A stretch of DNA of 22,882 bases from an uncultured Pseudomonadales bacterium (GTDB lineage Bacteria; Pseudomonadota; Gammaproteobacteria; Pseudomonadales; Cellvibrionaceae). The notes under the pieces were generated by a model that did no database searches, was not told the DNA's origin, and saw only the letters and a list, made by a program, of their open reading frames with translations. The stretch spans positions 1 through 22,882 of the forward strand of contig CALIUX010000158.1 in NCBI GenBank assembly GCA_938048505.1. The letters are read 5' to 3'. Below are positions 2,218-17,329 of this stretch, in pieces; positions within the stretch are counted from its first letter, which is position 1; every line of letters begins with the position of its first letter. Made by a program: the position numbers and the translations under genes.

Positions 2218-2445
2218 GGTATTCCTTTTATAAAAATCGTTATTCATACTTTAGTGAAACCCCTCTAATAGAAATCAGCAGGCCTACCTTCTATCAAGAA
2301 AGCATATCTCATCAAGGCAAAGAGGTTTATATGAGATAGCCAGCAGAGCTGCCCGAATGCCTTTGAGCAGCAGGTGTTAGCCTTACAGGTACTACATAAG
2401 CTAGTATGCGGCACTTGCCTAGACCCAACAATCGAATATTTTTAT
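2218..2445. other. Intergenic region with a small inverted repeat
   Basis: This is a divergent intergenic stretch between the LprI-like gene and cmoB. It contains an 8-bp inverted repeat, TATCTCAT (2305-2312) and ATGAGATA (2331-2338), separated by 18 bp. It should hold the cmoB promoter, but I cannot identify a convincing -35/-10 pair. There is no cmoA here, although cmoA often precedes cmoB in gammaproteobacteria. Confidence 0.35.
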
Positions 2446-3420
2446 ATGATTTGCTACCAACACCTTATCGATTCGCTTAGCCTCACTAAACTCGCTCCCC
2501 TTGCCGAAGCGATACCAGCACTGGTAAAAAGCGGGCTGTGCACGCAGCGTCATGCTGACCTTCCTCAGTGGCTAGATGCACTACACGCAATGCCAGAGGC
2601 ATCGCCATCGACTATTGCAATGCAAGATACTGTCACGCTTGGCGCAGCATCGGATCTCTCCACAGAGCAGCGGTCACAACTTGATCAAAATTTGCGTGCA
2701 TTGATACCCTGGCGAAAAGGCCCTTTTTCGGTGTTCGGTACACACATTGATACGGAGTGGCGCTCAGATTGGAAATGGAGCAGGCTGCAAGAAAAAATTA
2801 CCCCTCTTACCCACCGAACAGTGTTAGATGTAGGCTGCGGCAGTGGTTACCATTGCTGGCGTATGTGGGGCGATGGCGCTCAACGCGTCATTGGTATTGA
2901 GCCCTCACCACGATTTGTGGTGCAGTTTCATCAAATTAAACGCTACCTACCTGATGCACCAGTTGATGTACTCCCTGCCACACTAGAACAAATGCCGGTT
3001 AACCTCAGCGGTTTTGATACAACGTTTTCAATGGGGGTTTTATACCATCGGCGCTCACCTATTGATCATTTACGCGAATTAAAAGAGACACTCAAGCCAA
3101 AGGGAGAGCTTGTCTTAGAAACATTAATTGTGGACGGGCCAGAAGGCTATAGCTTAATGCCAGAAAAACGCTATGCTCAAATGAACAATGTATGGTTTTT
3201 GCCTTCGGTTGCTACCTTATCACTCTGGCTAAGGCGCTCTGGTTTCGACAATATTCGTGCTGTTGACATCTCAACCACATCAACAGAAGAGCAAAGAGCA
3301 ACCGAGTGGATGCAGTATTTATCACTTAAAGATTTTCTTGACCCGACAGACTCTTCAAAAACGTGTGAAGGCTATCCTGCTCCCAAAAGAGTCATAATGG
3401 TTGCCAATAGAAAATCATAA
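2446..3420 (+). CDS. cmoB: tRNA U34 carboxymethyltransferase CmoB
   Basis: CmoB transfers the carboxymethyl group of carboxy-S-adenosyl-L-methionine to 5-hydroxyuridine at wobble position 34 of tRNA, giving uridine 5-oxyacetic acid. The protein has 324 residues from the ATG at 2446, almost identical in length to E. coli CmoB (323). A GTG at 2374 would add 24 residues that have no counterpart in the family, so I prefer the ATG even though its ribosome binding site is weak. Conserved blocks include WRKGPF (89-94), DTEWRSDWKW, the SAM-binding loop LDVGCGSG (127-134), FSMGVLYHRRSP, GELVLETL and the C-terminal EGYPAPKR. Its usual partner CmoA, which makes the cofactor, is not adjacent and must be encoded elsewhere. 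mgsA follows 104 bp downstream. Confidence 0.95.
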   Translation: MICYQHLIDSLSLTKLAPLAEAIPALVKSGLCTQRHADLPQWLDALHAMPEASPSTIAMQDTVTLGAASDLSTEQRSQLDQNLRALIPWRKGPFSVFGTHIDTEWRSDWKWSRLQEKITPLTHRTVLDVGCGSGYHCWRMWGDGAQRVIGIEPSPRFVVQFHQIKRYLPDAPVDVLPATLEQMPVNLSGFDTTFSMGVLYHRRSPIDHLRELKETLKPKGELVLETLIVDGPEGYSLMPEKRYAQMNNVWFLPSVATLSLWLRRSGFDNIRAVDISTTSTEEQRATEWMQYLSLKDFLDPTDSSKTCEGYPAPKRVIMVANRKS

Positions 3421-3524
3421 CGCTACGGCTTTTACTCTCAACTCAACCAACAAGCCTTCAAAAACCTACCTTAATACTGGCCTTAATAATGACCTAAAAA
3501 CAGGTCTATGCATTTAGGATTAAT

Positions 3525-4001
3525 ATGAATAACGGACAAAACAAAGGGTTAGCAATGGTGCAAGCTCAATTACCTGCCCGCAAAACCATTGCATTGGTCG
3601 CCCATGATCACAAAAAACCCGATCTACTTGAGTGGAGCAAAAAGCATAAAAGTCAGCTTTCTACTCATACTCTCTGCGGCACAGGTACAACGGGGAGATT
3701 GCTTGAAGAGGCGCTTAATTTACCCGTAAAACAATTTTTAAGCGGGCCGCTTGGTGGCGATCAGCAACTGGGCGGGAAAATTGCCGAAGGCGATATTCAC
3801 TGTCTAATATTTTTTTGGGATCCCTTTCAGCCCATGCCACATGACCCGGATGTGAAAGCCCTACTGCGCCTCGCCACAGCGTGGAATATTCCCGTGGCTT
3901 GCAATATTGCCACAGCCGATTTGCTACTGAATAGCGAAGGGTTTAATCGTACGCTTGAGCGCCCCATTCCTGACTATGCGCAATATATGCAAAACCGATA
4001 A
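3525..4001 (+). CDS. mgsA: Methylglyoxal synthase
   Basis: MgsA converts dihydroxyacetone phosphate to methylglyoxal and phosphate, a bypass of lower glycolysis used when sugar phosphates accumulate. The 158-residue protein shows [14 protein letters not shown] near the N-terminus, GTGTTG at 52-57 (phosphate binding), and GGDQQ with Asp79 matching the E. coli catalytic Asp71. [12 protein letters not shown] follows, with His106 and Asp109 matching E. coli His98 and Asp101. The start ATG has AGGA six bases upstream. The N-terminus is about eight residues longer than in E. coli. The gene ends only 4 bp from the stop of the convergent regulator gene, leaving no room for a dedicated terminator. Confidence 0.95.
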
Positions 4002-4005
4002 ACCA

Positions 4006-5919
4006 CTATGACTGCGCAGGCTTTAAACCTAAACGCTTTATTCTGGATGCCAAAGTGGTGGGCTTCATTCCAAGTAATTCAGCCGCGCCATCTTTACCGA
4101 ATAATTTCCAATCACATTGATCCAGTGCTGCCTGCATATTGTTGACAACTAAAGCTTGCACCTCAGGATCGGTCAGGATACTTTTTTGCGTACTGCTCGA
4201 TTCGGATAAGTGCTGCTTATGAGCATCGTCCGTTACGGGTAAATCAAGCTTTAATCGCCCTTGCCGGCTGGTAATCACTGCTCGCTCTATCACATTTTGC
4301 AATTCACGAATATTCCCAGGCCAACGATAATGTTTTAATTTTTGGAAATCGCCCTGCCGCAATTTATAAGGTGGTTTGCCATTGCGCTTTGCTGCCTGTT
4401 CTAAAAAATGACTAGCCAATAACAATACATCATCCCCTCGTTCACGCAGCGAAGGAGAATGAATAGGATAAATATTGAGGCGAAAAAATAAATCTTCGCG
4501 AAAGCGATTTTCAGCCACTTCACATTTAAGATCGCGATTTGTAGCGGCAATGACACGCACATTCACATTGCGCGTTTTTTCTTCACCCACACGCTCTAAC
4601 TGACCTTCTTGTAATACACGCAATAATTTACTTTGCAAAGAGAGCGGAATCTCGCCTACCTCATCTAAAAAAATTGTGCCGCCATCGGCCAGCTCAAAAC
4701 GTCCCGTACGATCACGCAATGCTCCCGTAAACGCACCACGTGCATGGCCAAAAAATTCACTCTCAAATAATTCTTGAGGAATGGCAGCGCAGTTCACTCT
4801 AATTAACGGTTTATCGCAACGACCACTCGCTTCATGAATGGCATGTGCAATTAACTCCTTACCTGTACCTGACTCCCCAGTAATAAGCACCCCCGCTTGC
4901 GTCTGGGCAACGAGCTCAATTTTTTGAACAATTTGATTGACGGCAGGACTCTCACCGATGATTCCATGATATTGCTGTGCAATTAAAAACTCTTGCTGCA
5001 AATAGGCGTTTTCATCTTCAAGGCGCTCTTTGAGTTGACTCACCTCCTCAAGTGCAGCACGTAGCTTACGATCTGTTTCAACACGCTCACTGATATCACG
5101 AAAGACAACCACCGCTCCAATAATGGTACTATCTGAAATAATGGGTGTGCTGGTAAACTCTACAGGGAAAGGGGTTCCATCATGCTTCCAAAAGACTTCT
5201 TGAATACCTTCATGCACAACACCATCTCGAATAGCCGCATAAATAGGACACTCTTCAACAGGGTAATGACTACCGTCATCATGCGTATGGTGGTGTACAT
5301 AATGAATATTTTGCCCCAACACATCACCATCACTACGCCCCAGCAAACGCTTAGCCGCAGGGTTAATAAATGTACACAACCCATCAGTATCAACACAATA
5401 GATGCCGTCACCTACTGATGTCAGCATGAGTAAGTTATCGCGCTCATCTTGCTGAAAAACACTCTGTAAGTATTTCCATTCTAGCAAGCCATTACGGGCA
5501 ATTTTATCGGCGGCATCTTGTTTTTCTTTCTCTTGCTCAGCTCGAATATCTCTGAGTGTCACAATTAAATAATCTTCACGATTAATTACAACCCGTGCGC
5601 CATTCAGCTCAACCGGAATATGCTGGCCATTATGGAGGCGGCAACTAATCATCCGGCTACGTGCTTTACCTTGCGTCAATGCTTGCTCAGTAAAAACAAT
5701 TAAGAGCCCTAATTCACGCCCGTGTATTTTTGAAATAGGTAGCGTCAAAATATCGCGTTTTTCATAGCCCAATAATTTTGACGCGGCGATATTGCAATCG
5801 ACATAGGTATTTTTAATGGGGTCAAGCAGCATTAAGGGCTCTGAGCAGTGCTCAAATGCTGACGAACGCATCCAATAAGCCAGTTGATTCCAGCCATCGA
5901 CTGAATCACCTTCGTACAT
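4006..5919 (-). CDS. nitA: Sigma54-dependent PAS-PAS-AAA+ transcriptional activator of the nit operon (NitA-like)
   Basis: This 637-residue protein is a bacterial enhancer-binding protein. Two PAS sensor domains lie at about 18-125 and 160-280. The second contains [11 protein letters not shown] and a His-rich stretch before [12 protein letters not shown], a form common in PAS sensors. A short coiled linker (about 285-315) leads to the AAA+ domain: Walker A GESGTGKE (348-355), the sigma54-contacting GAFTGA loop (395-400) and Walker B GGTIFLDE (413-420). A Fis-type helix-turn-helix lies at about 611-632 ([20 protein letters not shown]). AGGAG stands six bases before the ATG. The presence of GAFTGA means it activates sigma54 promoters. 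Its divergent position opposite a -24/-12 promoter makes the nit operon its obvious target. The PAS ligand is unknown. The name nitA follows usage for Nit1C clusters and is less certain than the function. Confidence 0.88.
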
Positions 5920-6012
5920 CGTATTCTCCTGACTTTAAGCTATTTCTCATGAGACTTACTTTCATAGCATTGGTTTTCATGGAATTTATGCCTACACGTT
6001 TTATACCAACTT

Positions 6013-6080
6013 GCTATATGGCGCCTTCTACTCAAATGCGTAATAAAACACTACGCATTTGAGTAGAAGCACGAAATAGC
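6013..6080. promoter_or_regulatory. Long inverted repeat, candidate enhancer (UAS) for the sigma54 activator
   Basis: The arms CTTCTACTCAAATGCGTA (6025-6042) and TACGCATTTGAGTAGAAG (6052-6069) are a perfect 18-bp inverted repeat with a 9-bp AT-rich centre. A second pair, GCTAT (6013-6017) and ATAGC (6076-6080), extends the symmetry across a 6-7 nt internal loop. The centre lies about 130 bp upstream of the -24 element, within the usual range for enhancer-binding proteins. Both flanking genes read outward, so it cannot be a terminator for either. It is larger than a typical single-dimer site and could instead be a REP/MITE-like element. Confidence 0.6.
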
Positions 6081-6155
6081 GTAGCTAAGGCTTTTAAACA
6101 GGGGTAGCCACCATTAACTATAAGTCTTTGTTTTTAATGATTAAAAAAATATTTT

Positions 6156-6168
6156 CATCAATTTTTTA
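6156..6168 (+). promoter_or_regulatory. Putative IHF-binding site between enhancer and promoter
   Basis: CATCAATTTTTTA matches the IHF consensus WATCAANNNNTTR at all positions except the first. An A/T-rich tract (6141-6155) precedes it, as in many strong IHF sites. It lies just upstream of the -24 element, where IHF bends DNA to bring an enhancer-bound activator to sigma54 polymerase. The region is AT-rich, so a chance match is possible. Confidence 0.5.
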
Positions 6169-6173
6169 ATGGG

Positions 6174-6189
6174 TGGAACGCTTATCGCT
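6174..6189 (+). promoter_or_regulatory. Sigma54 (-24/-12) promoter of the nit operon
   Basis: TGGAACGCTTATCGCT has the invariant GG (6175-6176) and GC (6187-6188) separated by exactly 10 bp. It also matches the consensus TGGCACG-N4-TTGCW in TGG, ACG and GCT, differing at two weaker positions. With the final C as -12, transcription should begin near A6200, 68 nt before the nitB start codon. The divergent neighbour encodes a GAFTGA-type activator, which strongly supports this assignment. Confidence 0.75.
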
Positions 6190-6200
6190 ATAGGGATAAA

Positions 6201-6227
6201 TGCAGGCATCTGCAAACACAGCCTGCA
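6201..6227 (+). promoter_or_regulatory. 5'-leader hairpin at the predicted nit transcript start
   Basis: TGCAGGC (6201-6207) and GCCTGCA (6221-6227) form a perfect 7-bp stem with a 13-nt loop. The predicted sigma54 start site is A6200, so the mRNA would begin almost directly with this stem-loop. Such 5' hairpins can protect mRNA from RNase E-dependent decay. It ends about 24 nt before the AAGAGGA ribosome binding site, so it does not mask it. The symmetry could instead be a DNA operator. Confidence 0.45.
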
Positions 6228-6267
6228 ATGAAATGACTTTTATGAAACAACGCAAGAGGATGAAGTT

Positions 6268-6750
6268 ATGCCCGTAGTAGACAAGCCCCTCCATCAAGAC
6301 GGTGACTTTTTAGTCGATTACGAAGAAAAAGTATTTGAGGATGTACAAGCACCACCCGGTGCCAAAGCCTTACTAACATTCCATACCGTTGCCTTCGAAG
6401 GGTCAATTGGTTTGGTGAACTTGCTTCAAGCCAAACGCTTGCTGCGCAAAGGCTATAAAACCACGATATTACTCTATGGACCCGGCGTATTGTTAGGCGT
6501 ACAGCGTGGCTTCCCAAAATTAGGGGATGAAGCCTTCCCAGGCCATCTTGCTTACAACGCTCAACTTAAAGCGTTTATGGGAGAAGGCGGTGAAGTGTAT
6601 GCCTGTCGCTTTGCCCTTCAAGCACTTTATGGCCAAACAGAGAAAGCATTGATCGAAGGTATCCGCCCGATCAACCCGTTAGATGTAATGGACCTTCAGT
6701 TGTTAATGGCTAAAGAAAACGCCTTTACCGTTCATACCTGGACAGCCTAA
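6268..6750 (+). CDS. nitB: NitB: MSMEG_0572/Sll0783-family nitrogen-starvation response protein
   Basis: This 160-residue protein is the first gene of the Nit1C operon. Its position directly before the nitrilase gene and its sequence ([35 protein letters not shown], a final VHTWTA) fit the MSMEG_0572/Sll0783 family. In Synechocystis, Sll0783 is induced by nitrogen starvation and needed for polyhydroxybutyrate accumulation; its biochemical role is unknown. The alternating beta-strand/helix pattern with a conserved Cys near 113 loosely recalls the DsrE-like fold, which is my inference. The ATG at 6268 has AAGAGGA upstream at good spacing. No signal peptide or membrane segment is visible, so it is cytoplasmic. 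The stop is 2 bp from the nitC start, implying translational coupling. Confidence 0.85.
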
Positions 6751-6752
6751 AC

Positions 6753-7793
6753 ATGAACAAAGTCGTCGCGGCTGCAGTGCAATGCAGCCCGGTGCTTTAC
6801 TCGCGTGAAGGCACCGTAAACAAAGTCTGTGAATGGATCAAAAAGTTAGGCAAAGAAGGGGTCGAATTCGCTGTATTCGGTGAAACATTGATTCCTTACT
6901 ACCCGTACTTTTCCTTCATTCAACCACCCTATGCTATGGGCAAGCAACATCTCAAGCTTATGGCAGAAAGCGTGACGGTACCTTCAGCGGCGACAGACGC
7001 CATTGCCAAAGCCGCAAAAGCGGCTGGCATGGTCGTTTCAGTCGGTATCAATGAGCGTGACGGCGGTACAATTTACAATGCACAGCTGCTATTTAATGCA
7101 GATGGTACCTTAGTGCAGCATCGACGCAAAATCACCCCTACCTATCATGAGCGCATGGTTTGGGGGCAAGGTGATGGCTCGGGCCTCACTGCGGTCGATA
7201 CACAAGTTGGGCGAGTTGGCTCACTGGCTTGCTGGGAACACTACAACCCTCTTGCTCGCTATGCATTGATGGCCGACCACGAACAAATTCATGTCGCTAT
7301 GTTCCCCGGCTCGTTAGTTGGCGATATTTTTGCCGAGCAAATCGAGGTCACAATTCGTCATCATGCATTAGAAAGCGGTTGTTTTGTGGTGAACGCCACC
7401 GGATGGTTAAGCCCTGAGCAACAAGCACAAATTGTCCAAGATACGGGTGGGGAACTTAAACCTATTACAGGGGGTTGTTTTACTGCCATTGTCTCGCCAG
7501 AAGGCCGATTATTGGGTGAGACGTTAACGAGCGACAGTGGCGAGGGTGCATGCATTGCAGAGCTTGATATGACGCTTATCGATAAACGTAAGCGCATGAT
7601 GGATAGCGCAGGCCATTATAGCCGCCCAGAACTACTCAGCCTGCTGATTGATAAGCAGCCCAAGGCACACCTACAACCAAGCCATGCCTCGAGCGCGGGT
7701 ATTGAGCCAACTAGCACTATGCAATCGGCTACTCAGCAAGCGCTGGGGCCCGCACCCTCTCCTACCTTCACACAACCCGCTTCATACAAATAG
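6753..7793 (+). CDS. nitC: NitC: Nit6803-type aliphatic nitrilase
   Basis: The protein has 346 residues. Nitrilases hydrolyse R-CN to a carboxylic acid and ammonia through a Glu-Lys-Cys triad. The triad is intact: Glu44 in VFGETLIP, Lys126 in [14 protein letters not shown] and Cys160 in SLACWEH. The Cys-Trp-Glu-His signature separates true nitrilases from amidase and carbamoylase branches of the superfamily. Synechocystis Nit6803, the best-studied member of this cluster type, also has about 346 residues. The last 40 or so residues are Pro/Ser/Ala/Gln-rich and look disordered; in nitrilases such tails affect filament assembly. The in-vivo substrate is unproven; work on Pseudomonas fluorescens NCIMB 11764 links the cluster to use of cyanide as nitrogen source. 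Confidence 0.93.
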
Positions 7794-7815
7794 CCCATAA
7801 CGAACGAGGTGTGAC

Positions 7816-8979
7816 ATGTCTTTAGATAAGCAACAGATTACAGATATACAAACACAAGGGCTGCGCTGGATAGACCCTGAAAATATGGGCTTAAATAGGC
7901 GCGGAGGTGCAGGCCCAACAGATCATAAAGCCCTATGCTTTGAACAGCAGACGAGTATGGTTCCCGTTTTTAGCGAGCAAGCGCACAACTCACCGTTTAG
8001 CGCACAGGTTGATGCATCTGGGTCTCAGGTGCTTATTTTTGAAGAAGACAAACTACTTGGTAGCGCAAGCTTACCTAATACACCTCGTTTCTATGCCTTA
8101 AATACGGCTGATGGCATACCCTATTCTCATATCGCAACGCTGCATAGCAACAACGTACTCGCAACTACGGTGCTGCAAACGTGCGTTCGATATCGTAACC
8201 GTGATACCTCCTGCCAGTTTTGCGCAATCGAAGAGTCTTTAACTGCGGGTAAGACTATTGCACAAAAAACCCCTGCACAGCTAGCTGAAGTCGCCAAAGC
8301 CGCCGTTGAGCTAGATGGTATAGAACAAATGATCATGACCACGGGCACGCCAGCCGGCCTTGATCGTGGCGCCAAAGTCTTAACAGCGTGCGCGGCTGCA
8401 GTGAAGCAAGCCGTTAATATACCGATTCAAGCACAATGCGAACCGCCCGCAGACGATATTTGGTTTGATCGCATGAAAGCGGCCGGTATCGATGCTTTAG
8501 GCATGCATCTAGAAGCCGTAACCGATCGCGTACGAAACAAAATCATGCCAGGTAAAGCAACTGTTCCCCTCAGTCGGTACTTTAGCGCCTATAAAGCTGC
8601 CGTGAACGTATTTGGCAAAGGAAATGTAAGCACTTACATACTTGCAGGACTGGGCGATACAGAAGAAGAAATTCTCACCATCAGCGAGAAGCTGATTGAT
8701 ATTGGCGTCTACCCTTTTGTTGTGCCATTTGTACCTGTCGCAGGCACCCCACTCGCCAACGCCCCCATGGCCGATAGCGCGATGCTCAATCGCCTGTTTA
8801 GCAAATTAGGGCCAGCTATTAGTGCTCGCGGCATTAACTCTTCAGGCCAAGCAGCAGGTTGTGCCAAGTGCGGCGCCTGCTCATCACTAAAAAGCTATGA
8901 AAGTACAACACGCCAGAACGCACATACTGACATGCCTTGCTCAAGCACATTAACAGAGGAGTCGGCTTACCATGCCTAA
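7816..8979 (+). CDS. nitD: NitD: MSMEG_0568-family radical SAM protein
   Basis: This 387-residue protein has a radical SAM core. The [4Fe-4S]-binding cysteines are Cys123, Cys133 and Cys136 (TCVRYRNRDTSCQFC), a CX9CX2C spacing instead of the usual CX3CX2C. This fits the subgroup found in Nit1C clusters. Downstream are MTTGTPAG (glycine-rich SAM contact), a QAQCEPP strand and a YILAGLGDTEEE loop near the barrel end. A second motif CAKCGAC (349-355, CX2CX2C) near the C-terminus could ligate an auxiliary cluster or zinc. The product is therefore probably an oxygen-sensitive radical enzyme; its substrate is unknown. GAGGT lies upstream of the start. The gene overlaps nitE by 8 bp. Confidence 0.9.
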   Translation: MSLDKQQITDIQTQGLRWIDPENMGLNRRGGAGPTDHKALCFEQQTSMVPVFSEQAHNSPFSAQVDASGSQVLIFEEDKLLGSASLPNTPRFYALNTADGIPYSHIATLHSNNVLATTVLQTCVRYRNRDTSCQFCAIEESLTAGKTIAQKTPAQLAEVAKAAVELDGIEQMIMTTGTPAGLDRGAKVLTACAAAVKQAVNIPIQAQCEPPADDIWFDRMKAAGIDALGMHLEAVTDRVRNKIMPGKATVPLSRYFSAYKAAVNVFGKGNVSTYILAGLGDTEEEILTISEKLIDIGVYPFVVPFVPVAGTPLANAPMADSAMLNRLFSKLGPAISARGINSSGQAAGCAKCGACSSLKSYESTTRQNAHTDMPCSSTLTEESAYHA

Positions 8980-9532
8980 GCATCAATATGCTTTAGTAGA
9001 CGAGACTTTTAGCGATTTTCGTTCACATCATATTCGCGTGAAAACCGCTGAAAGTGGTTGGGAAAAAAACGCCTACTTTCAGCTACGTAAAGAAATATTC
9101 GCGCGCGAGCAAAAGATCCTGCCAGAAAATGAAACAGACGCTGAAGACTTTCGCGCAATCCCCATTGTTGCATTGGCCTCATGTTGGAGCATCAGCGATC
9201 ATGTTGTTGGCGCGGTGAGAATTTACTCGGTGCCGAATGCCGACGATGTTTGGTATGGCGGCCGCTTATGTGTGGCGCGCGCATACCGTGGGCATAAAAG
9301 TATTGGCAAAGCCCTCATTAATGAAGCCGTCTCACGCGCGAAAGACCTTGGCTGCAAAACTTTTTTGGCCAATGTACAGCCTCAAAATGAAAGCTATTTT
9401 CAATCCGTGCATTGGCAATCGTGCGGGCCTATTGAAATAGCTGGCAAACCGCATATTCATATGCAAGCACAGCTAGATGCCTACCCTTTCATGCCACGAG
9501 ATATCAGTGTGAATGCCGTATGTACTCAATGA
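8972..9532 (+). CDS. nitE: NitE: MSMEG_0567-family GNAT acyltransferase
   Basis: This 186-residue GNAT-fold protein starts inside the end of nitD (8-bp overlap), with GAGGAG about ten bases upstream. The acyl-CoA loop is at about 106-115 (RGHKSIGKAL) and is looser than the classical RxxGxG. The following FLANVQPQNESYFQSVHW matches the family's C-terminal pattern for the beta5/alpha4 region. The N-terminal part (FREIFxxEQxI-like KEIFAREQKIL) resembles autoinducer-synthase-like GNAT proteins. It is predicted to acylate an amine formed in the Nit1C pathway, but neither donor nor acceptor is known. In some genomes this domain is fused to the AIR-synthase-like domain; here the two are separate genes. 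Confidence 0.85.
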   Translation: MPKHQYALVDETFSDFRSHHIRVKTAESGWEKNAYFQLRKEIFAREQKILPENETDAEDFRAIPIVALASCWSISDHVVGAVRIYSVPNADDVWYGGRLCVARAYRGHKSIGKALINEAVSRAKDLGCKTFLANVQPQNESYFQSVHWQSCGPIEIAGKPHIHMQAQLDAYPFMPRDISVNAVCTQ

Positions 9533-9582
9533 AACGCGACGACAAAACACCTCGTTTTCACTGCCCTAGCCAAGGACATGCT

Positions 9583-10581
9583 ATGGCAAGCGAACTCGAA
9601 ATATTATGCGATACCCTACGAGCACTGCCAGAGCTTGATGCTAAGCGCGCGATAAGCCACGCAGCGGTGAGCTATGCTGGAGCCCCTCTACAAGAACGCT
9701 ATGCGATGCCTGGAGATGACTGCGCAGCTTTTAAGACCGAAGGGGGTTATCAACTATTAGCGATGGAAGGCATGCTGCCCAATTTTGTTGCACAAGACCC
9801 TCGTGCAGCAGGTTGGTCTTCTGTTATGGCCAACGTCAGTGACATTGCAGCAATGGGCGGGCGAGCACAAGCCGTCGTCAATGCATATTGGCATGATGAC
9901 AAACAACAAGCCGCCGAGCTGCTTTTTCATATTAAGCGCGCCTGCGATTCGTTTGGTGTCCAGTTTGCAGGCGGCCATAGCAGCTTACATGCAGAGCATA
10001 GCCCCAACCTAGCCGTTGCCATTACCGGCTTTGCAAAACAGTTATTGTCTTGCCACCACGTACAACCAGGCCAACGGCTTTTTTTACTGACAGACTTAAC
10101 CGGCAGCTGGCACCGTGACTTGCCCTATTGGGGTTGCGTAGTAGGTAAAAGCAAAGAGCAAATTCGCCAGCAATGGCAAATTCCGGCCTTGCTGGCCGAA
10201 CAAGAATTGGCTGTCGCCGCAAAAGATGTAAGTAATGGCGGCCTCTTAGGCACGCTAATTATGTTGCTTGAATTAACTGGATGTGGCGCAACGGTAGACC
10301 TAAGCGCAATCCCACTCCCCGATAACGATTTACTGCGCTGGATGCGTGCTTTTCAAAGTTTTGGATTTTTACTCGCCGTTGAACCCAGTGCAATCTCAGG
10401 CCTCATCCGCTTTTTCAATGATAGTCACCTGACATGCACGCCTATTGGTGAAATCAACCACTCAGGTGTTATTGAACTGGATATGGCCGGTACCACCGCA
10501 GAATTCTGGAATCTAAAACAACAACCCTTGACCCACATGGGAATGCCCAAGAGTGAGGAGGCCGATTATGCCCGCCGTTAG
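9583..10581 (+). CDS. nitF: NitF: Sll0787-family AIR synthase (PurM/ThiL/SelD-like) protein
   Basis: The protein belongs to the PurM/AIR-synthase-like ATP-binding superfamily, whose members activate oxygens or sulfurs with ATP (PurM, ThiL, HypE, SelD). From the ATG at 9583, PGDDCAAF lies at about 43-50 and VMANVSDIAAMGG at about 81-93; these are the metal/ATP-binding motifs of ThiL-like enzymes. DVSNGGLLGTL appears in the C-terminal half. I favour ATG 9583 (332 residues) because AAGGA lies six bases upstream. In-frame ATGs at 9529 (4-bp ATGA overlap with the nitE stop) and 9520 would add 18 or 21 residues. The reaction is unknown; phosphorylation or ATP-driven condensation of a pathway intermediate is plausible. 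It overlaps the nitG start by 14 bp. Confidence 0.85.
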   Translation: MASELEILCDTLRALPELDAKRAISHAAVSYAGAPLQERYAMPGDDCAAFKTEGGYQLLAMEGMLPNFVAQDPRAAGWSSVMANVSDIAAMGGRAQAVVNAYWHDDKQQAAELLFHIKRACDSFGVQFAGGHSSLHAEHSPNLAVAITGFAKQLLSCHHVQPGQRLFLLTDLTGSWHRDLPYWGCVVGKSKEQIRQQWQIPALLAEQELAVAAKDVSNGGLLGTLIMLLELTGCGATVDLSAIPLPDNDLLRWMRAFQSFGFLLAVEPSAISGLIRFFNDSHLTCTPIGEINHSGVIELDMAGTTAEFWNLKQQPLTHMGMPKSEEADYARR

Positions 10582-10858
10582 ATTTTCTGTGAAATGGCCA
10601 GATGGTGAAGACGTTATTTACTACTCACCCTCTACGATTATTCATGACTACATTAAGCCTTCATCAACCATAGCCTTGCAGCCATTTTTAAAGCAAGTCA
10701 ATACGGCTTTGGATGCAGCTTCTGAGCGAGTTTTTCAGCGTTACGGCTATCACTGCTCAAGCGCCGCCGACGAGCAAAAAAAAATTCAAGTAAAAGCACA
10801 GCAATTGGCCAAGCAGAATATTAGTGGTGACATTTATTATGACATCGTTGCAATGTGA
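10568..10858 (+). CDS. nitG: NitG: MSMEG_0570-family small protein
   Basis: This is a 96-residue protein. The ATG at 10568 has a strong GAGGAG seven bases upstream, so an in-frame GTG at 10553 is unlikely to be used. The sequence begins PAVRFSVKWPDGE, then YYSPSTIIHDYI, which matches the MSMEG_0570 nitrogen-starvation response family found only in this cluster type. A long helix near the middle contains ALDAASERVFQRYG, followed by a Lys/Gln-rich region. No catalytic motif is visible. It may be a small accessory subunit or chaperone of the neighbouring enzymes; that is a guess from its size and constant company. A 129-nt gap with strong RNA folding separates it from nitH. Confidence 0.82.
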   Translation: MPAVRFSVKWPDGEDVIYYSPSTIIHDYIKPSSTIALQPFLKQVNTALDAASERVFQRYGYHCSSAADEQKKIQVKAQQLAKQNISGDIYYDIVAM

Positions 10859-10862
10859 TTTT

Positions 10863-10919
10863 ATCAGTCATCAAATTTAACAAGAGCCCATTGCTCTTTG
10901 CAACCGTAAATTGACTGAT
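10863..10919 (+). promoter_or_regulatory. Nested stem-loops in the nitG-nitH gap
   Basis: Outer arms ATCAGTCA (10863-10870) and TGACTGAT (10912-10919) pair perfectly, and ATTTA (10875-10879) continues with TAAAT (10907-10911) after a 4-nt bulge. Inside lies a hairpin AAGAGC (10882-10887) / GCTCTT (10893-10898) with a 5-nt loop. No T-run follows, so it is not a classic terminator. It may be an RNA-processing or stability element that sets nitH levels apart from nitBCDEFG, or a DNA operator for a separate nitH promoter. Confidence 0.45.
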
Positions 10920-10987
10920 CGTTTAGCGATAGACATTTTGCATACGAATCCTCTTTGGCCTACGCCATACCGCTCACAAAATCGTTT

Positions 10988-12304
10988 ATGAATACTTTAA
11001 AGAATAATTTAAATACCACTAGCACCTCATCTAACGCCTCAAATATTCCAGCATTAGACGGGCCAGAAAAACACTATCCAGTCATTATTGTTGGAGGTGG
11101 CCAAGCCGGCATGGCTATGAGTTTTTGTTTGGGAAAACTAGACATTGAGCATCTCATCCTCGATAAGGCACAAGAACTGGCTCACAACTGGCAACATGAG
11201 CGCTGGGATAGCTTTTGCTTAGTAACACCCAACTGGCAATGTCAATTACCGGGGTTTCCGTACAACGGAGATGATCCAGATGGCTTTATGGTAAAGGATG
11301 AAATTATTAATTACTTAAAAGCGTACCGCGATTTTTTTAACCCGCCAATACAGTTTAGCTCACCCGTTAGCTCACTCTCACAAGAAAACGGTTTATTTCA
11401 TATTAAAACGCCAAAGCAATATTTTACAGCAGATCAAGTCGTACTCGCTTGCGGGGGCTATCATAAGCCAAACATCCTCCCTTTTGCGCAGCAGTTTCCT
11501 GACTCAATGACGCAGGTGCATTCTCGTGATTACAAGAATTCTAAACAGCTGCCTGAAGGCGAAGTCATGGTAATTGGTACAGGTCAAAGTGGTAGCCAAA
11601 TCGCTGAAGACTTGCACTTAGAAGGGCGTAAAGTCCATTTGTGCGTAGGAAGCGCGCCACGGGTGAATCGCCGGTATCGTGGTAAAGATGTGGTCAACTG
11701 GCTAAATGAAATGGACTACTATCAAATGACAATTGACAAACATCCCGAAGGCGATAATGCACCACATGCAACAAATCACTATGTCACGGGGCGCGATGGC
11801 GGACGCGACTTGAACTTGAGAGTATTCGCCGAGCAAGGTATGCAACTCTATGGCAAAATGAAAACAGTGGTAAATGGTGTTATTGAATTTGAGGATGATT
11901 TAAAAACAAATCTTGATTACGCTGACAATGCTGCCAAGCGAATACGCGCATCGATTGAAAAATATATTGATGAAAACAATATTGATGCGCCTGCAGATCA
12001 AAATATTCATAGTCAGCATCTTCCTGAATCACCTTCTAGCCTAGACTTAAACACAAGCAATATCACTTCCGTTGTTTGGGCGACAGGCTTTAAAATGCAA
12101 TTTGATTGGCTTAAAGTACCCGTCACTGACAACAGCGGCAGGCCTATTCAAAAACGAGGACTAACGGATACTAATGGTTTATATTTTTTAGGCTTGAACT
12201 GGATGCATACTTGGGGCTCGGGCCGATTCTTTCATGTTGGCCAAGATGCAGAGTTCATTAGCGAGCAAATTGCCCAAAAGCTAAAAAAACAAGCTATCGC
12301 TTAA
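10988..12304 (+). CDS. nitH: NitH: MSMEG_0569-family flavin-dependent oxidoreductase
   Basis: From ATG 10988 the protein has 438 residues; a TTG 33 bp upstream is an unlikely start. Two dinucleotide-binding motifs are present. GGGQAG at 36-41 (FAD, after VIIV) and GTGQSG at 197-202 (NAD(P)H, after VMVI) give the two-Rossmann layout of flavin monooxygenases and Baeyer-Villiger-like enzymes. A WATGF motif lies near the C-terminus. LPGFPYNGDDPDGFM at about 88-102 is typical of the Nit1C oxidoreductases. It probably oxidises a small pathway intermediate using NAD(P)H and O2. Residues 1-28 are a low-complexity Asn/Thr/Ser-rich extension before the FAD fold. The ribosome binding site is weak, unlike those of nitB-nitG. 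Confidence 0.88.
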   Translation: MNTLKNNLNTTSTSSNASNIPALDGPEKHYPVIIVGGGQAGMAMSFCLGKLDIEHLILDKAQELAHNWQHERWDSFCLVTPNWQCQLPGFPYNGDDPDGFMVKDEIINYLKAYRDFFNPPIQFSSPVSSLSQENGLFHIKTPKQYFTADQVVLACGGYHKPNILPFAQQFPDSMTQVHSRDYKNSKQLPEGEVMVIGTGQSGSQIAEDLHLEGRKVHLCVGSAPRVNRRYRGKDVVNWLNEMDYYQMTIDKHPEGDNAPHATNHYVTGRDGGRDLNLRVFAEQGMQLYGKMKTVVNGVIEFEDDLKTNLDYADNAAKRIRASIEKYIDENNIDAPADQNIHSQHLPESPSSLDLNTSNITSVVWATGFKMQFDWLKVPVTDNSGRPIQKRGLTDTNGLYFLGLNWMHTWGSGRFFHVGQDAEFISEQIAQKLKKQAIA

Positions 12305-12373
12305 TACACAATAGACTCTTTGCAAAAAATTACTTAGCTCATCGACGAAAGATTACCTATAAAGAAGGTCATT

Positions 12374-12862
12374 ATGAATTTTGATTTAGATGTAGAAGAT
12401 ACACGTCAACCCCTACCGCCTTTCACCCAAGAGACTGCGATACAGAAAATTCGTATCGCAGAAGATGCTTGGAATCTCAAAAATTCAGAAAAGATTGCAA
12501 CAGCTTATAGCTTAGATAGTCACTGGCGCAACAGAGATACCTTTATTCAAGGACGAGAAGAAATTATTCAATTTCTGAATGGCAAGTGGGCAAAAGAACT
12601 AGACTACCGATTAATCAAAGAGCTATGGGCTTTTTCAAGCAATCATATAGCCGTACGCTATGTGTATGAATGGCACAATGATGAAGGGCAATGGTTTCGC
12701 TCACATGGAAATGAAAACTGGGCATTTAATGAGAAGGGCTTAATGCAAGAACGCCACGCCAGTATTAATGATATTGCAATTGAAGAATCTGAGCGAAAAT
12801 TTCTCTGGCCTCAAGGTAAGCGCCCAGAAAGCCATCCAGGATTAACCGAGCTAGGGCTTTAA
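12374..12862 (+). CDS. DUF1348 / NTF2-like (SnoaL-type) protein
   Basis: This 162-residue protein matches the DUF1348 group of the NTF2/SnoaL-like cone fold: [57 protein letters not shown] and [12 protein letters not shown] all fit the family pattern. The cone encloses a hydrophobic pocket used in relatives for binding or isomerising small ligands; the conserved Trp, Arg, His and Glu around it are present. AAGGT lies before the ATG. It lies 69 bp after nitH on the same strand with no terminator between, and before the strong operon terminator, so it is probably co-transcribed as a ninth nit gene. A role downstream of the flavoprotein is an inference. Confidence 0.8.
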
Positions 12863-12977: not shown

Positions 12978-13009
12978 AAAAGGGGCTAAGTTTAAACTTA
13001 GCCCCTTTT
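12978..13009. terminator. Bidirectional intrinsic terminator, perfect 32-bp palindrome
   Basis: Arms AAAAGGGGCTAAGTTT and AAACTTAGCCCCTTTT form a perfect palindrome centred at 12993/12994, with a GC-rich stem core and a T-run on either strand. It lies between the convergent DUF1348 gene (+) and beta-helix gene (-), so it can end both transcripts. Confidence 0.9.
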
Positions 13010-13042: not shown

Positions 13043-14950
13043 TTAGCGTAGATCAGGTGGTAAATCAGATGGATCGCCAGTATTAAATAAGGTTTCTTGA
13101 ACAAGCCCTGATGCACCTAGGTTTGTGGTGGCATTGAAATTCACAAAGTCACCGACCAAATTAGATCGTTCGCTCTGATCAAGTCTGCCATTACCATTAT
13201 CATCAGTATTGAAAAGGTTCATGGTAGCCAAACCACTGCGAGACGGTTCAAACTGATTAAAGTTGTTGCCATCAATCTCAAGATTTCTAAACGCCAGAGC
13301 AAAGATACCACTGCGGCCTGCACCATAAAAATCGTTATTGATAACGCGCACATTCACAGTAGCTTCTTCACTGTCAGCATTAGCACCGTGGTCTTGGAAA
13401 GGCAAAACACTAATACCTTGGTTATTCTGCTGACCATTCACTACACGATTCACAGCAATAGCGTTATCTCGAATTGTCACATCACGAGACATATGCTCAA
13501 CGTTAATACCCGACGAAAAGTCAAAGACATCATCCGTCTCACCAACGGTTTCAACAAAGTTATCTCGAATTGTCACATCAGCGACTTTAGCTAGCGCAAT
13601 CGGAAATTCAGTCGCTCTTACTGGGTCAGAATCAAACTCACCAGTATTATTAGCAATTACACCGTTGTTAAATTTGATAATTAGGTTGTTGTTATTGCCA
13701 CGGTTTGCACGCGTATTATTTGGAAAACCGGGGGCAGGATCATGATTAAACCCATCATTACCACCATCAATTTGAATACCAACTTGCATGCCAGGCTCGC
13801 CATCATCAACAAAGAATCGGTTGCCCGTAATGGTCAAACGACCTGCGTTCTGATAAAAAATACGATCACCAGCACCATCAAAAAGATTAGTACGTTGACG
13901 TGTAAAATCAGATAAAGCGGCATCACGTGTTAAATCAATGGCTTTATTCATATTGACAAATGTATTGTCAATAACACGTAAATTCGACGGGATAATACCT
14001 TGGTTACGTAAACCGGCAGTTGCATTGCGTAATGTAACATTGCGCAATGTGAAATTATTCGCGCGAGTTGTACCTCGGTTATTCAATTGCACTAAAGTAT
14101 TTGCACCGTTGCGATTACTACCATTAATAGTCAAGTTACGCAGGGTCACATTACTCGAAAAGATTGCAAAGGCTGGTGTAAACTCAGCAAAGGCACCTGA
14201 TGTTGGAACACTGTGGTTCAATGTATTTCCACCACCATCAATCACAACGGGCTTATTAACTAAGATTTCTTCTGAGAATGAAAAATTAGAAGAAATACGA
14301 ATCACATCACCTGCACTCGAATTATTAATCGCAGCCTGTAATTGAGCACGGCTGCTAATACCTGCAACTGAGTTGCTAGGCTGTTGCTGGCTAGGTTGAC
14401 CGTTAGAAGATTGTCCATTGCTAGCAGATGTGTTAGACGAAGATGTATTAACAGAGAACGCTAAACGCGATTCATTACACCCATCCCACATAACAAGCGC
14501 TGTACCGTCTGCTGGATTGGCTGATCCACCTCTTGGGTGAACGCATTTTTGACTGGATACTTGCTGAAGGCTATTGCCTGTAGTTTGATCAAACCGAACG
14601 CGATCAGCAAAGTCACAGCCCTGCCACAAGACTAGCTCTGTCCCATTATCTGGAACATTCAATCCACCGGGGTGAACACATTGGTTAGAAGGCACATGTT
14701 TGATACTACCACCTGCAGACAATGTGAAGTGAGCAGCGGGGCCAGAACAATTTGAACTGAGTACAACCTTTGTGCCATTTGCAGGCGAGGATGAGTTGTT
14801 TTGTACTCGTAAACATTTTCCCGATGAATGCTCTATTGTTTCAACGGTTTGCGCTGAAGCTATTGGAGCAACCATAGCAATAAGCGAATAACTTACGGTC
14901 AAAGAGACTACAGAAAGAGCCGCTTTGAGGGACTGTGTCGATTTGTTCAT
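13043..14950 (-). CDS. Secreted protein with lectin-like Cys repeats and a parallel beta-helix
   Basis: The 635-residue protein starts at ATG 14950, preceded by GAGGT; an extension to 15067 is open but lacks a ribosome binding site. Residues 1-33 are a signal peptide ending ASA. Residues about 38-175 hold three repeats of roughly 45 residues with pattern KC(V/L)...NGT.(L/V)V...C (for example KCVHPRGG), resembling a ricin/CBM13-type beta-trefoil. A Ser/Asn/Gln/Pro linker (about 178-205) follows. The rest shows many short Val/Ile strands alternating with Asn turns (TLRNVTLRN, VTIRDNFVE, LEIDGNNF), typical of a right-handed beta-helix as in pectate-lyase-like proteins. DDNGNGRLDQSE (583-594) fits an EF-hand-like calcium loop. 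It is likely extracellular, binding or cleaving a polysaccharide; no CAZy family could be assigned. Confidence 0.8.
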   Translation of the reverse strand: MNKSTQSLKAALSVVSLTVSYSLIAMVAPIASAQTVETIEHSSGKCLRVQNNSSSPANGTKVVLSSNCSGPAAHFTLSAGGSIKHVPSNQCVHPGGLNVPDNGTELVLWQGCDFADRVRFDQTTGNSLQQVSSQKCVHPRGGSANPADGTALVMWDGCNESRLAFSVNTSSSNTSASNGQSSNGQPSQQQPSNSVAGISSRAQLQAAINNSSAGDVIRISSNFSFSEEILVNKPVVIDGGGNTLNHSVPTSGAFAEFTPAFAIFSSNVTLRNLTINGSNRNGANTLVQLNNRGTTRANNFTLRNVTLRNATAGLRNQGIIPSNLRVIDNTFVNMNKAIDLTRDAALSDFTRQRTNLFDGAGDRIFYQNAGRLTITGNRFFVDDGEPGMQVGIQIDGGNDGFNHDPAPGFPNNTRANRGNNNNLIIKFNNGVIANNTGEFDSDPVRATEFPIALAKVADVTIRDNFVETVGETDDVFDFSSGINVEHMSRDVTIRDNAIAVNRVVNGQQNNQGISVLPFQDHGANADSEEATVNVRVINNDFYGAGRSGIFALAFRNLEIDGNNFNQFEPSRSGLATMNLFNTDDNGNGRLDQSERSNLVGDFVNFNATTNLGASGLVQETLFNTGDPSDLPPDLR

Positions 14951-15253
14951 CAACGTAACCTCATTTTGATACTGCAATGTATTTATTTTTTTTATTTTGT
15001 CAGTTGTCGCAAAACAATCTTTTTGGATCGCATAGATCAACTGTGTGACATCAATATGACAGATCATGGGCTATAATTTCAAATGGTTTTTAGCGCATTT
15101 CGTCAGCCGATGGATGTAAATGGGGAAAATTGAGGAGAGAGTCATAATAGTTAAAGAAAAACAACCATTATGCTTAAAAATCAAGCAGATACAGGTAACG
15201 AAAAAAACAAAAATAAGATAAAAAGTGTGTCAGAAGGGAACACAAAACAAAGA

Positions 15254-15358: not shown

Positions 15359-15976
15359 TTAAAGACTATTTTTTACCCAGTCATAAAAATGTGCGATTTC
15401 TGAAGAAGAAAAGCCGCGATACATTAAAAAACGATACTGCTTTGCCTTTTCTTTGGGGTCAACAGGCAATGCTTTAAACTTTTTAAGCCATACGCGATAA
15501 ATCAGCTCATCTTGCGAAAAGCCTTCTCCGCTTGCATCTTCAATACCCCTATCAGCAAGCTCGGCATCAATGCCTTTTTGCTTTAACTCCTGCCTAATAC
15601 GTATAAAGCCTAATCCTTTTGCAATAGAGTTCCGAATAAATAACTCAGTAAAACGCTGATCATTTTGGTAGCCATAGCCCTGTATTTTATCAATCACACG
15701 ATCTATTTGGCTGAGATCCTCAACATTCAATGCAAGTAGTTTTTCACGCAGCATTTTCTCAGAGTATTCACGACGCGAAAGCATTTCTATGGCTTTATTA
15801 AAAAGGTAGCGGTACTGCTTTTGCTCTAACCTTTCAGTTTCCAGCTTCTCAGCTTCCAGTCTTTCTACCTCTAAGCTTTTTATTTCTAAACTACCCGTTT
15901 CTGAATTATCTTTTTTAAGCTTATCCTTTTCAAAGTTTTGAGAGCCTAATGGCTCATCAAAATTAAGCGGCTGCAT
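15359..15976 (-). CDS. recX: Regulatory protein RecX with repeat-containing N-terminal extension
   Basis: RecX binds RecA filaments and blocks their extension. The last 150 residues are a standard RecX: YRYLFNKAIEMLSRREYSEKMLREKL, then three-helix repeats including VIDKIQGYGYQNDQRFTELFIRNSIAKG, RIRQELKQKGI and a C-terminal RFLMYRGFSSSEI. The 205-residue length exceeds the usual 150-165. The excess is a charged N-terminal region (about residues 1-53) that ends in five pentapeptide repeats (x-L-E-x-E/K). The gene follows recA on the same strand after a strong hairpin, so it is probably expressed by read-through of recA transcripts. The ATG at 15976 has AAAGGT upstream. Confidence 0.93.
   Translation of the reverse strand: MQPLNFDEPLGSQNFEKDKLKKDNSETGSLEIKSLEVERLEAEKLETERLEQKQYRYLFNKAIEMLSRREYSEKMLREKLLALNVEDLSQIDRVIDKIQGYGYQNDQRFTELFIRNSIAKGLGFIRIRQELKQKGIDAELADRGIEDASGEGFSQDELIYRVWLKKFKALPVDPKEKAKQYRFLMYRGFSSSEIAHFYDWVKNSL
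15818..15892 (-). repeat. 15-bp tandem repeat encoding five LE-containing pentapeptides
   Basis: RecX residues 29-53 read SLEIK, SLEVE, RLEAE, KLETE, RLEQK: five tandem units of five residues, each with invariant Leu-Glu at positions 2-3. The DNA is a degenerate 15-bp repeat, suggesting growth by replication slippage. A period of five does not match a heptad coiled coil, but the segment should still be a highly charged helix. Confidence 0.8.
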
Positions 15977-16042
15977 TTTTATTTACCTTTTTATTTTCAA
16001 TAAAAAAATCAAAGTGCATTTATGCTAAACACAGTATTCATG

Positions 16043-16090
16043 TTATTAAAAAAGCCATGCTCGTTTAATCAAACATGGCTTTTTTAATAA
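16043..16090. terminator. recA-recX intergenic terminator hairpin
   Basis: A perfect 17-bp inverted repeat, TTATTAAAAAAGCCATG (16043-16059) and CATGGCTTTTTTAATAA (16074-16090), has a 14-nt loop. Read on the minus strand it follows the recA stop and ends in a U-run. As in E. coli, partial read-through would give low-level recX expression. Confidence 0.88.
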
Positions 16091-16122
16091 TCAGATAATT
16101 AACAGACGTTAATTTTTAAAAA

Positions 16123-17154
16123 TTAAGCAGGCTGCTCTTCTGTTGGCTTTTCTTGGTTTTCTGCAAGATCACCTAGTAATTCCTTTTTAATATCAGCTTC
16201 AAGGCGCTCGGCCAACTCTTTATGCTCACGTAAGTACTGAATCGCGTTTTGCTTACCCTGACCAATTTTTTCGCCTTCGCAGCTATACCATGCACCAGCC
16301 TTATCGACCAAACCTAACTTAACACCATAATCAACAATTTCACCTAAGCGATTAATGCCTTGGCCATATAGGATTTGAAATTCAGTTTGCCTAAAGGGTG
16401 GCGCGACTTTATTTTTAACCACTTTGACGCGTGTTTCTGAACCGACTACTTCATCGCCTTCTTTCACAGCACCAATACGACGAATATCTAAACGAACAGA
16501 AGAATAGAATTTAAGTGCATTACCACCCGTCGTAGTTTCAGGATTACCAAACATCACACCAATTTTCATACGAATTTGGTTAATAAAAATAGCTAAACAA
16601 TTAGCATTTTTAATATTACCCGTAATTTTACGTAATGCTTGTGACATAAGGCGAGCCTGTAGGCCCACATGATGATCGCCCATCTCACCTTCAATTTCTG
16701 CTTTAGGTGTAAGCGCTGCAACAGAATCCACAACCATCACATCAACCGCACCAGACCGTACGAGCATATCTGCGACTTCTAGTGCTTGCTCACCCGTATC
16801 AGGCTGCGAGACGATTAGATCATCAACGTTCACACCCAGCTTTTCAGCATAGATTGGGTCGAGAGCATGCTCTGCATCAATAAAGGCGCAAGTACCGCCA
16901 TTTTTTTGTGCTTCAGCAATAACTTGCAATGTGAGCGTTGTTTTACCTGATGATTCAGGGCCATAAATCTCAACGATACGCCCTTTGGGCAAGCCCCCTA
17001 TTCCTAAGGCAACATCAAGACCTAAAGAGCCTGTTGAAACACTGGGTATTGCTTCTCGCTCTTTATCACCCATACGCATGACGGTGCCTTTACCAAACTG
17101 ACGTTCGATTTGAGAGAGTGCAGCAGAAAGCGCTTTTTCTTTATTTGCGTCCAT
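16123..17154 (-). CDS. recA: Recombinase RecA
   Basis: RecA forms ATP-dependent filaments on single-stranded DNA, catalyses strand exchange and triggers LexA self-cleavage. The 343-residue product starts at ATG 17154 (AAGGGG upstream); an open extension to 17226 is not part of Rec[24 protein letters not shown] is the standard N-terminus. Walker A GPESSGKT is at 65-72, followed by Walker B-type [10 protein letters not shown], the L1/L2 loop regions ([21 protein letters not shown] and [22 protein letters not shown]) and the usual acidic tail ending EEQPA. The sequence is strongly conserved throughout. Two imperfect LexA boxes lie 127-161 bp upstream. The gene sits between pncC and recX, the common gammaproteobacterial order. 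Confidence 0.98.
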
Positions 17155-17280
17155 TAGGGTCCCCTTGCATTTCATGGGTTGAGAAATATGCTTATTGATA
17201 GTTTGTTCGTTTTGATACGGCTGCATTCTACAGGCGTTATGAGTTTGTATCTAATAGTGATAAAGCATAAGACAAAAATA

Positions 17281-17296
17281 CTGTATAAGCAAACAC
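17281..17296. promoter_or_regulatory. Imperfect LexA (SOS) box, recA-proximal
   Basis: CTGTATAAGCAAACAC on the plus strand fits CTGT-N8-ACAG with one mismatch in the inner half. The outer half is extended as TACTGTAT, the same as in the E. coli recA operator. It lies about 127 bp upstream of the recA start. Confidence 0.5.
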
Positions 17297-17299
17297 ATA

Positions 17300-17315
17300 T
17301 TGTGTATTCATACAG
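17300..17315. promoter_or_regulatory. Imperfect LexA (SOS) box, recA-distal
   Basis: TTGTGTATTCATACAG on the plus strand fits CTGT-N8-ACAG with one mismatch in the inner half. Its outer half reads ATACAGTA. Its centre is 19 bp from that of the neighbouring box, close to two helical turns, so two LexA dimers could bind the same face. Confidence 0.5.
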
Positions 17316-17329
17316 TACTTATTTTCAAC

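Follow-up and report, generated by a model that had tools for sequence, protein, structure and literature searches.

A nitrilase-1 operon with a predicted paired NitA operator, a conserved sigma54-type promoter and an adjoining DUF1348 gene in an uncultured Pseudomonadales bacterium

The seven-gene nitrilase-1 cluster Nit1C was defined in 2005 (PMC1199592), and induction by cyanide or nitrogen starvation, as well as a need for the cluster during growth on cyanide, has been reported for other species. How such a cluster is controlled, and whether a further gene at its end belongs to it, are the questions raised by a stretch of 22,882 nucleotides from an uncultured Pseudomonadales bacterium of the Cellvibrionaceae (GCA_938048505.1, CALIUX010000158.1; hereafter the window), which spans contig C158 from end to end in a draft assembly of 2.42 Mb, 323 contigs and 72.54% completeness. 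Between 4006 and 12862 it carries nitA on the minus strand, followed on the plus strand by nitBCDEFGH and a gene of the DUF1348 family. We regard it as probable, judging from sequence, that this is a Nit1C operon serving the use of cyanide or nitrile nitrogen, that it is controlled by NitA through paired palindromes and a sigma54 promoter, and that the DUF1348 gene was recruited to it. The Nit1C core and the divergent NitA are already known, and cyanide use has been shown in Pseudomonas; the conserved promoter with its paired palindromes and a link between DUF1348 and cyanase are added here.

The initial annotation had proposed a complete cluster with nitBCDEFGH in conserved order and tightly coupled, and this was confirmed: NitB to NitH, NitD to NitG among them, all exceed their NCBIfam cut-offs (7/7), the gene order is canonical, and short gaps (nitB-nitC 2 bp, nitC-nitD 22 bp) or overlaps (nitD-nitE, nitE-nitF) separate the genes in the list of open reading frames. 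The radical SAM, GNAT, AIR-synthase and flavin oxidoreductase families that it had placed around the nitrilase were borne out by the same models, and the six genes of the Nit1C definition (hyp1-nitrilase-rSAM-GNAT-AIRS-hyp2) as well as the flavoprotein are present. The divergent activator also stood, with PAS and Sigma54_activat domains and a legible GAFTGA motif. Its description as the cluster's own sigma54 activator holds for its presence and not as an addition, because a divergent NitA has already been described in Pseudomonas oleovorans CECT 5344 (PMC11049912), and the gene is thus the canonical nitA. As nitA is divergent and nitB is preceded by a promoter of sigma54 type, the locus has the Pseudomonas-type nitABCDEFGH arrangement.

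The region between nitA and nitB was compared across 80 fetched loci with close NitB relatives (the best 80 of 577, distant Nit1C types lying outside the sample), to which five family relatives were added; where NitA stands opposite nitB in the listed relatives, it is 57-73% identical to that of the window. A -24/-12-like element was found with a loose pattern in 43 of 43 nitA-divergent gaps (window included) compared with 0.3 of 43 in shuffles, and with a tighter pattern in 42 of 43 compared with 0.07, and is situated 46-91 bp before nitB. The copy in the window, TGGAACGCTTATCGCT, differs by a single base from TGGCACG on its -24 side.

Two palindromes, TACTCAAATGCGTA and TACGCATTTGAGTA, lie as a pair 107 bp upstream of this element. 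Scored out of 24 points with a threshold of at least 19, the best pair reached 17-24 points in each of the 43 gaps, the shuffles having a mean of 14.4 and a maximum of 18. In 35 of 43 gaps the pair is centred 130-140 bp ahead of the promoter, a placement seen in 4% of shuffles; when the consensus was taken from the window only, the figure was 34 of 43. Distances from pair to promoter are mostly 116-120 bp; the others, of 107-108 or 138-142 bp, would be shorter by roughly one helical turn or longer by two, and the 83 bp of L009 departs from this pattern. Allowing two mismatches at most, the pair occurs at one place in its own assembly, and no pair of at least 19 points was found in 1,214,240 bp of 99 other stretches, fetched around DUF1348 genes.

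The promoter and the pair are distributed differently with respect to nitA. Among nitA-divergent loci the promoter is present in 42/42 and a pair scoring 19 points or more in 40/42; where a nitA match is not divergent, each is present in two of three; and in loci without nitA in the fetched stretch the promoter occurs in 37/40 and the pair in 3/40. With an initial, narrower promoter pattern, 26 of the 44 loci that are not nitA-divergent had been recovered (L001, the copy of the window itself, being counted); the pattern was then widened to the one that gave 37/40 and 2/3, compared with 0.60 and 0.03 in shuffles. Since most loci without nitA retain the promoter, sigma54 control appears to be wider than NitA. 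NtrC sites were considered for the control of these loci and rejected, as no locus attained 11/14 and mean scores equalled or fell short of those of shuffles, to within 0.1.

The presence of NitA was followed up in 15 chosen genomes, in which DUF1348 was viewed only near activators. For the three pair-bearing loci without nitA (L013, L024, L026) a NitA elsewhere in the genome had been predicted, and each genome was found to have one, 57-59% identical; two of these genes lie on a different contig, and the third is 5.5 kb beyond nitH on its downstream side. The operator prediction thus held for nitA genes not adjoining nitB. No NitA homologue at E<=1e-100 was found in five of five Burkholderiales without the pair or in G036. 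Four genomes (G461, G462, G463, G020) have no pair before nitB, yet possess NitA homologues of 49-51% identity; these look like CynF, with cyanase nearby in three of the four and a nitrate/cyanate-type transporter, read by eye, near the fourth. Pairs of 21-22 points are found beside the activator in G020, G462 and G461, and as pairs thus occur also at CynF-type activators, the site type is one of the wider NitA/CynF family.

Differences in the helix-turn-helix of NitA parallel those in the site: KPTTL(A/T)S accompanies TACG-type half-sites, and NPTTLIS goes with mostly TATG half-sites in Acinetobacter, Xenorhabdus and Photorhabdus, these groups being clades as well. In L143 and L144 nitA is located on a contig apart from nitB and has a 22-point pair at its own start, which suggests autoregulation. 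Taken as the predicted NitA operator, the paired palindromes have a distribution that fits; Podar et al. 2005 (PMC1199592) reported that conserved upstream binding sites had eluded them, and later literature may describe a promoter or operator.

At the other end of the operon, the 69-bp gap between nitH and the DUF1348 gene contains no plus-strand terminator-like, sigma70-like or sigma54-like site, and the eight plus-strand genes would form one transcript ending at the terminator-like stem. The possible ninth gene of the initial annotation is accordingly real in that a DUF1348 gene stands before the terminator with none between it and nitH, and is local rather than general in the cluster. A DUF1348 gene was present in the fetched stretch of one of the 80 Nit1C loci besides the window (L055); in 74 of these loci the stretch extends 3 kb or more past nitH. 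Comparison of coordinates found it adjacent to Nit1C in 0/15 other Nit1C genomes of a sample of 398 Pseudomonadota, and a joined NitH and DUF1348 query reached 80% coverage in 0/1431 matching plasmid records, most of which matched one part only. DUF1348 as a general Nit1C gene was thus rejected.

A joined CynS and DUF1348 query, on the other hand, was covered to at least 80% by 17 plasmid records. Sixteen contain cynS (out of 100 cynS records), and the seventeenth has a peroxidase-related gene in its place. The 16 records belong to Paraburkholderia, Agrobacterium, Gluconobacter, Novosphingobium and Loktanella, hence to five genera of alpha- and betaproteobacteria. Six records were inspected, two of which come without a gene table; of the four annotated ones, two have the order cynR, carbonic anhydrase, cynS, DUF1348, another has cynR, cynS, DUF1348, and the fourth a sigma54 activator, an ABC transporter, cynS and DUF1348. 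An apparent CynS-DUF1348 fusion in Paraburkholderia caribensis was discarded, as two open frames with a stop between them were found. NitA- or CynF-type activators face cynS and DUF1348 in three genomes, with a 21-point pair between them in G020 and, in G451 and G452, a one-PAS activator, an 18-point pair and the two genes 12 bp apart. In G461 a NitA-like activator faces another DUF1348-holding operon (L145, contig C2, 8786-14300), being divergent to MbnB/DUF692 and DoxX family genes that precede DUF1348.

Co-occurrence was assessed in 397 genomes, the window's own being excluded (with it, 106 of 398 have DUF1348). Uncorrected for phylogeny or genome size, DUF1348 is found in 42/69 genomes with cynS compared with 105/397 overall (p=2e-11) and in 10/15 with Nit1C (p=0.001), and cynS in 10/15 with Nit1C (p=2e-5). 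The operon in the window itself contains no cynS. The host genome has rpoN, cytochrome bd and a cynS elsewhere, the last on contig C111 (L167, 5814-6350) and preceded at about 80 bp by a -24/-12-like site; neither a DUF1348 nor a NitA-like gene was found on that contig.

Several observations weigh against the operator and against a bond of DUF1348 with this pathway. The pair consensus and its threshold were chosen by visual inspection of the window, L005, L007 and L029; two nitA-divergent loci reach only 17-18 points; 4/85 loci are without a recognisable promoter; similar pairs stand beside CynF-type activators in L136, L138 and L139; L136, L140 and L141 show no recognisable -24/-12 element ahead of cynS; and L145 has no pair. 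As to DUF1348, the gene in L055 sits behind a TetR gene, and the closest of 116 relatives (G025, 77%) lies away from the Nit1C of that genome. In the neighbourhoods of 100 of 111 DUF1348 places besides the window, fetched in 99 stretches, TetR was the commonest of the partners sought (26/99 within 1.5 kb), cynS occurred once within 1.5 kb as a broken match and in 4/99 within about 6 kb (0.1 expected, P 5.5e-6), and nit genes in 0/99. PNPOx was found within 1.5 kb in 6/99 and a NitA-like activator within 6 kb in 1/99; the idea that DUF1348 loci generally carry pairs of the NitA type was rejected (0/99). One stretch (L253, 4956-7534) unites these neighbour types, with cynS and DUF1348 followed by TetR-like and PNPOx-like genes, as read by eye.

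An unrelated stress gene that stands before the terminator by chance, with no role in cyanide or cyanate metabolism, is accordingly a serious contender, although we lean against it. The frequency of TetR neighbours speaks for it, a shared strand and a missing terminator can be chance, and a described DUF1348 member is a fungal cercosporin-resistance protein (PMC4608573, as far as its available text goes); in the accessible literature the name DUF1348 was found in two papers, both concerned with this resistance in Cercospora, and an 'ntf2' in the legend to an Ace Lake Nit1C contig could not be identified as DUF1348 from the accessible part of that source (PMC9716671). It is opposed by the excess of DUF1348 among cynS genomes, by the cynS-DUF1348 neighbours in five plasmid genera and by the activators facing DUF1348-holding operons in G020, G451, G452 and G461. 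TetR is far commoner than cynS near DUF1348; the family is best described as a mobile accessory gene whose tie to cyanate operons is real but minority. That DUF1348 is a dedicated protein of cyanate or cyanide metabolism, belonging to cyn operons and here, under NitA, to Nit1C, we consider unlikely. If it were true, the Nit1C pathway would form or meet the reactive intermediate of cyanase (cyanate or carbamate), the Nit1C and cyanase pathways would be tied together, and an uncharacterised bacterial family would receive its first biological setting.

In the favoured reading of a NitA-controlled operon for cyanide or nitrile nitrogen, NitA would bind the palindrome pair about 107 bp upstream of the sigma54 promoter, would be triggered by a cyanide- or nitrile-derived signal together with nitrogen limitation, and would drive the single nitBCDEFGH-DUF1348 transcript with its presumed end at 12978-13009. 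Cyanide and a 2-oxoacid would give a hydroxynitrile, from which NitC would release ammonia and a carboxylate, as reported for Pseudomonas; NitB, D, E, F, G and H would most likely supply an accessory metabolite or cofactor. Recruited DUF1348 would most likely handle a reactive product of cyanate or cyanide, e.g., cyanate or carbamate, which is the weakest step.

The initial annotation saw a small-molecule pathway that might make or break a nitrile; NitC is the only Nit protein with an assigned reaction, known from other species. Its E44-K126-C160, the Glu-Lys-Cys of subfamily-1 nitrilases, is conserved in at least 97% of 84 sequences, and it matches PDB 3wuy with 447 bits. The same degree of conservation applies in NitD to C123-x9-C133-x2-C136 and to C208, C349, C352 and C355. 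CX9CX2C is an unusual spacing for radical SAM proteins, and a second iron-sulfur cluster might be bound by the extra cysteines. NitF has weak matches to ThiL, PurL and SelD among solved structures; among the members of its superfamily are enzymes that phosphorylate with ATP (ThiL, SelD), in keeping with a possible role in making an activated intermediate. In NitB Cys113 is invariant in 36 aligned sequences; no convincing solved structure was found for it by sequence, and its DsrE match lies below the Pfam cut-off. NitG gave no convincing PDB or Pfam match, its fold being unrecognised from sequence. Its start was placed at ATG 10568 and not at GTG 10553, because the MP start is common to 35 aligned NitG, and nitH may begin at ATG 10988, residue 41 being the first that the family model covers.

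These accessory proteins allow a second alternative, possible and yet rather doubtful, by which Nit1C provides cells short of nitrogen with a dedicated small molecule, be it a cofactor, a redox protectant or a natural product, and cyanide use is incidental to NitC activity. It would account for seven genes that stay together though hydrolysis requires one, it agrees with the extra conserved cysteines of NitD, and the homologous gpr cluster of Mycobacterium smegmatis has been connected with GlnR-dependent peroxide resistance (PMC6039565, available text); among the literature matches listed, however, none names a product of the cluster.

Nit1C is patchy in the host family, nitB exceeding its cut-off in 6/37 genomes (host counted) and in none of three congeners (G001-G003), and as the latter are 99-100% complete, the cluster is patchily held within the genus. 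The island is flanked here by cmoB-mgsA and recA blocks, which in G003 are far from each other on a contig of 5.31 Mb (mgsA at 4.46 Mb, recA at 1.16 Mb), and G+C falls from 47-51% in nitB-nitF to 41-44% in nitG-DUF1348. That the contig was mis-assembled from two places and the Nit1C-DUF1348 neighbourhood is an artefact would accord with the many contigs and incompleteness of the draft, the separated blocks, the congeners without nitB and this fall in G+C, but is very improbable, as the join would need to fall inside an intergenic gap and no sharp step separates nitH (43.0%) from DUF1348 (40.9%). The cmoB-mgsA genes (2374-4001) are also together in G003, and recX-recA-cinA-kinase (15359-19890) are kept together in all three congeners. 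A minus-strand gene at 13043-15067, convergent with the operon, encodes a large protein with a ricin-type beta-trefoil near its start and repeats that by eye resemble a beta-helix; another on the minus strand, at 21205-22002, encodes a delta carbonic anhydrase family protein (PF10563, 248.5 bits).

Table 1. Positions of the nit genes and of predicted regulatory elements in the window.
Feature	Position	Strand	Evidence
nitA, PAS-AAA+(GAFTGA)-HTH sigma54 activator	4006..5919	-	Pfam PAS and Sigma54_activat (242 bits)
Palindrome 1 of proposed paired NitA operator, 14 bp	6029..6042		consensus scan and controls
Palindrome 2, 14 bp, spacing 23 bp from first	6052..6065		consensus scan
Sigma54 -24/-12 promoter-like element, 78 bp before nitB	6174..6189	+	pattern scan
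nitB, DsrE-like	6268..6750	+	TIGR04044, 272.5 bits (cut-off 109.85)
nitC, Nit6803-type nitrilase	6753..7793	+	TIGR04048, 527 bits (cut-off 502.6)
nitD, radical SAM	7816..8979	+	TIGR04043, 549 bits (cut-off 303.7)
nitE, GNAT acetyltransferase	8972..9532	+	TIGR04045, 184.2 bits (cut-off 68.45)
nitF, AIR-synthase-like ATP-binding enzyme, ThiL/SelD superfamily	9520..10581	+	TIGR04049, 401.1 bits (cut-off 321.3)
nitG, ~96 aa	10568..10858	+	TIGR04042, 99.6 bits in the GTG-10553 reading (cut-off 79.85)
nitH, flavin-dependent oxidoreductase, FMO/ArsO-like	10955..12304	+	TIGR04046, 587.2 bits (cut-off 498.35)
DUF1348 NTF2-like protein, ninth gene	12374..12862	+	PF07080, 213.3 bits (gathering 22.1); PDB 2imj
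Intrinsic-terminator-like stem, 14 pairs	12978..13009	both	terminator scan, 3' of operon

The short operator-promoter module makes the signal of NitA open to reporter tests, and the link of cyanase with DUF1348 supplies a definite working hypothesis on a family that is widespread but uncharacterised. Compared with known systems, the locus is closest in content to that of Pseudomonas oleovorans (pseudoalcaligenes) CECT 5344, for which the available text describes nitABCDEFGH with the same seven genes, the same order and a divergent nitA, and a NitC required for cyanide assimilation via 2-hydroxynitrile (PMC11049912). It differs from that cluster in DUF1348 at the operon end, and its palindromes are of the TACTCA/TGCGTA type, whereas most fetched Pseudomonas loci, a set outside which CECT 5344 itself lies, have TACGAA/TTCGTA. 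The same seven genes form the Nit1C operon of Teredinibacter turnerae T7901, likewise a marine gammaproteobacterium, which is described in the accessible part of its report without mention of the DUF1348 present here (PMC2699552). With cynFABDS the locus shares a sigma54 Fis-type activator facing the operon and nitrogen from a CN compound (PMC6627978, available text). Among cyn operons, of which cynFABDS and cynR-cynT-cynS are described forms, some terminate in DUF1348 as this one does; they contain cyanase in place of nitrilase and none of the nit genes. The gpr cluster of Mycobacterium smegmatis (MSMEG_0565-0572) resembles it in homologous genes and control by nitrogen starvation, and differs, as far as the text available tells, in being governed by GlnR and in its peroxide-resistance phenotype (PMC6039565).

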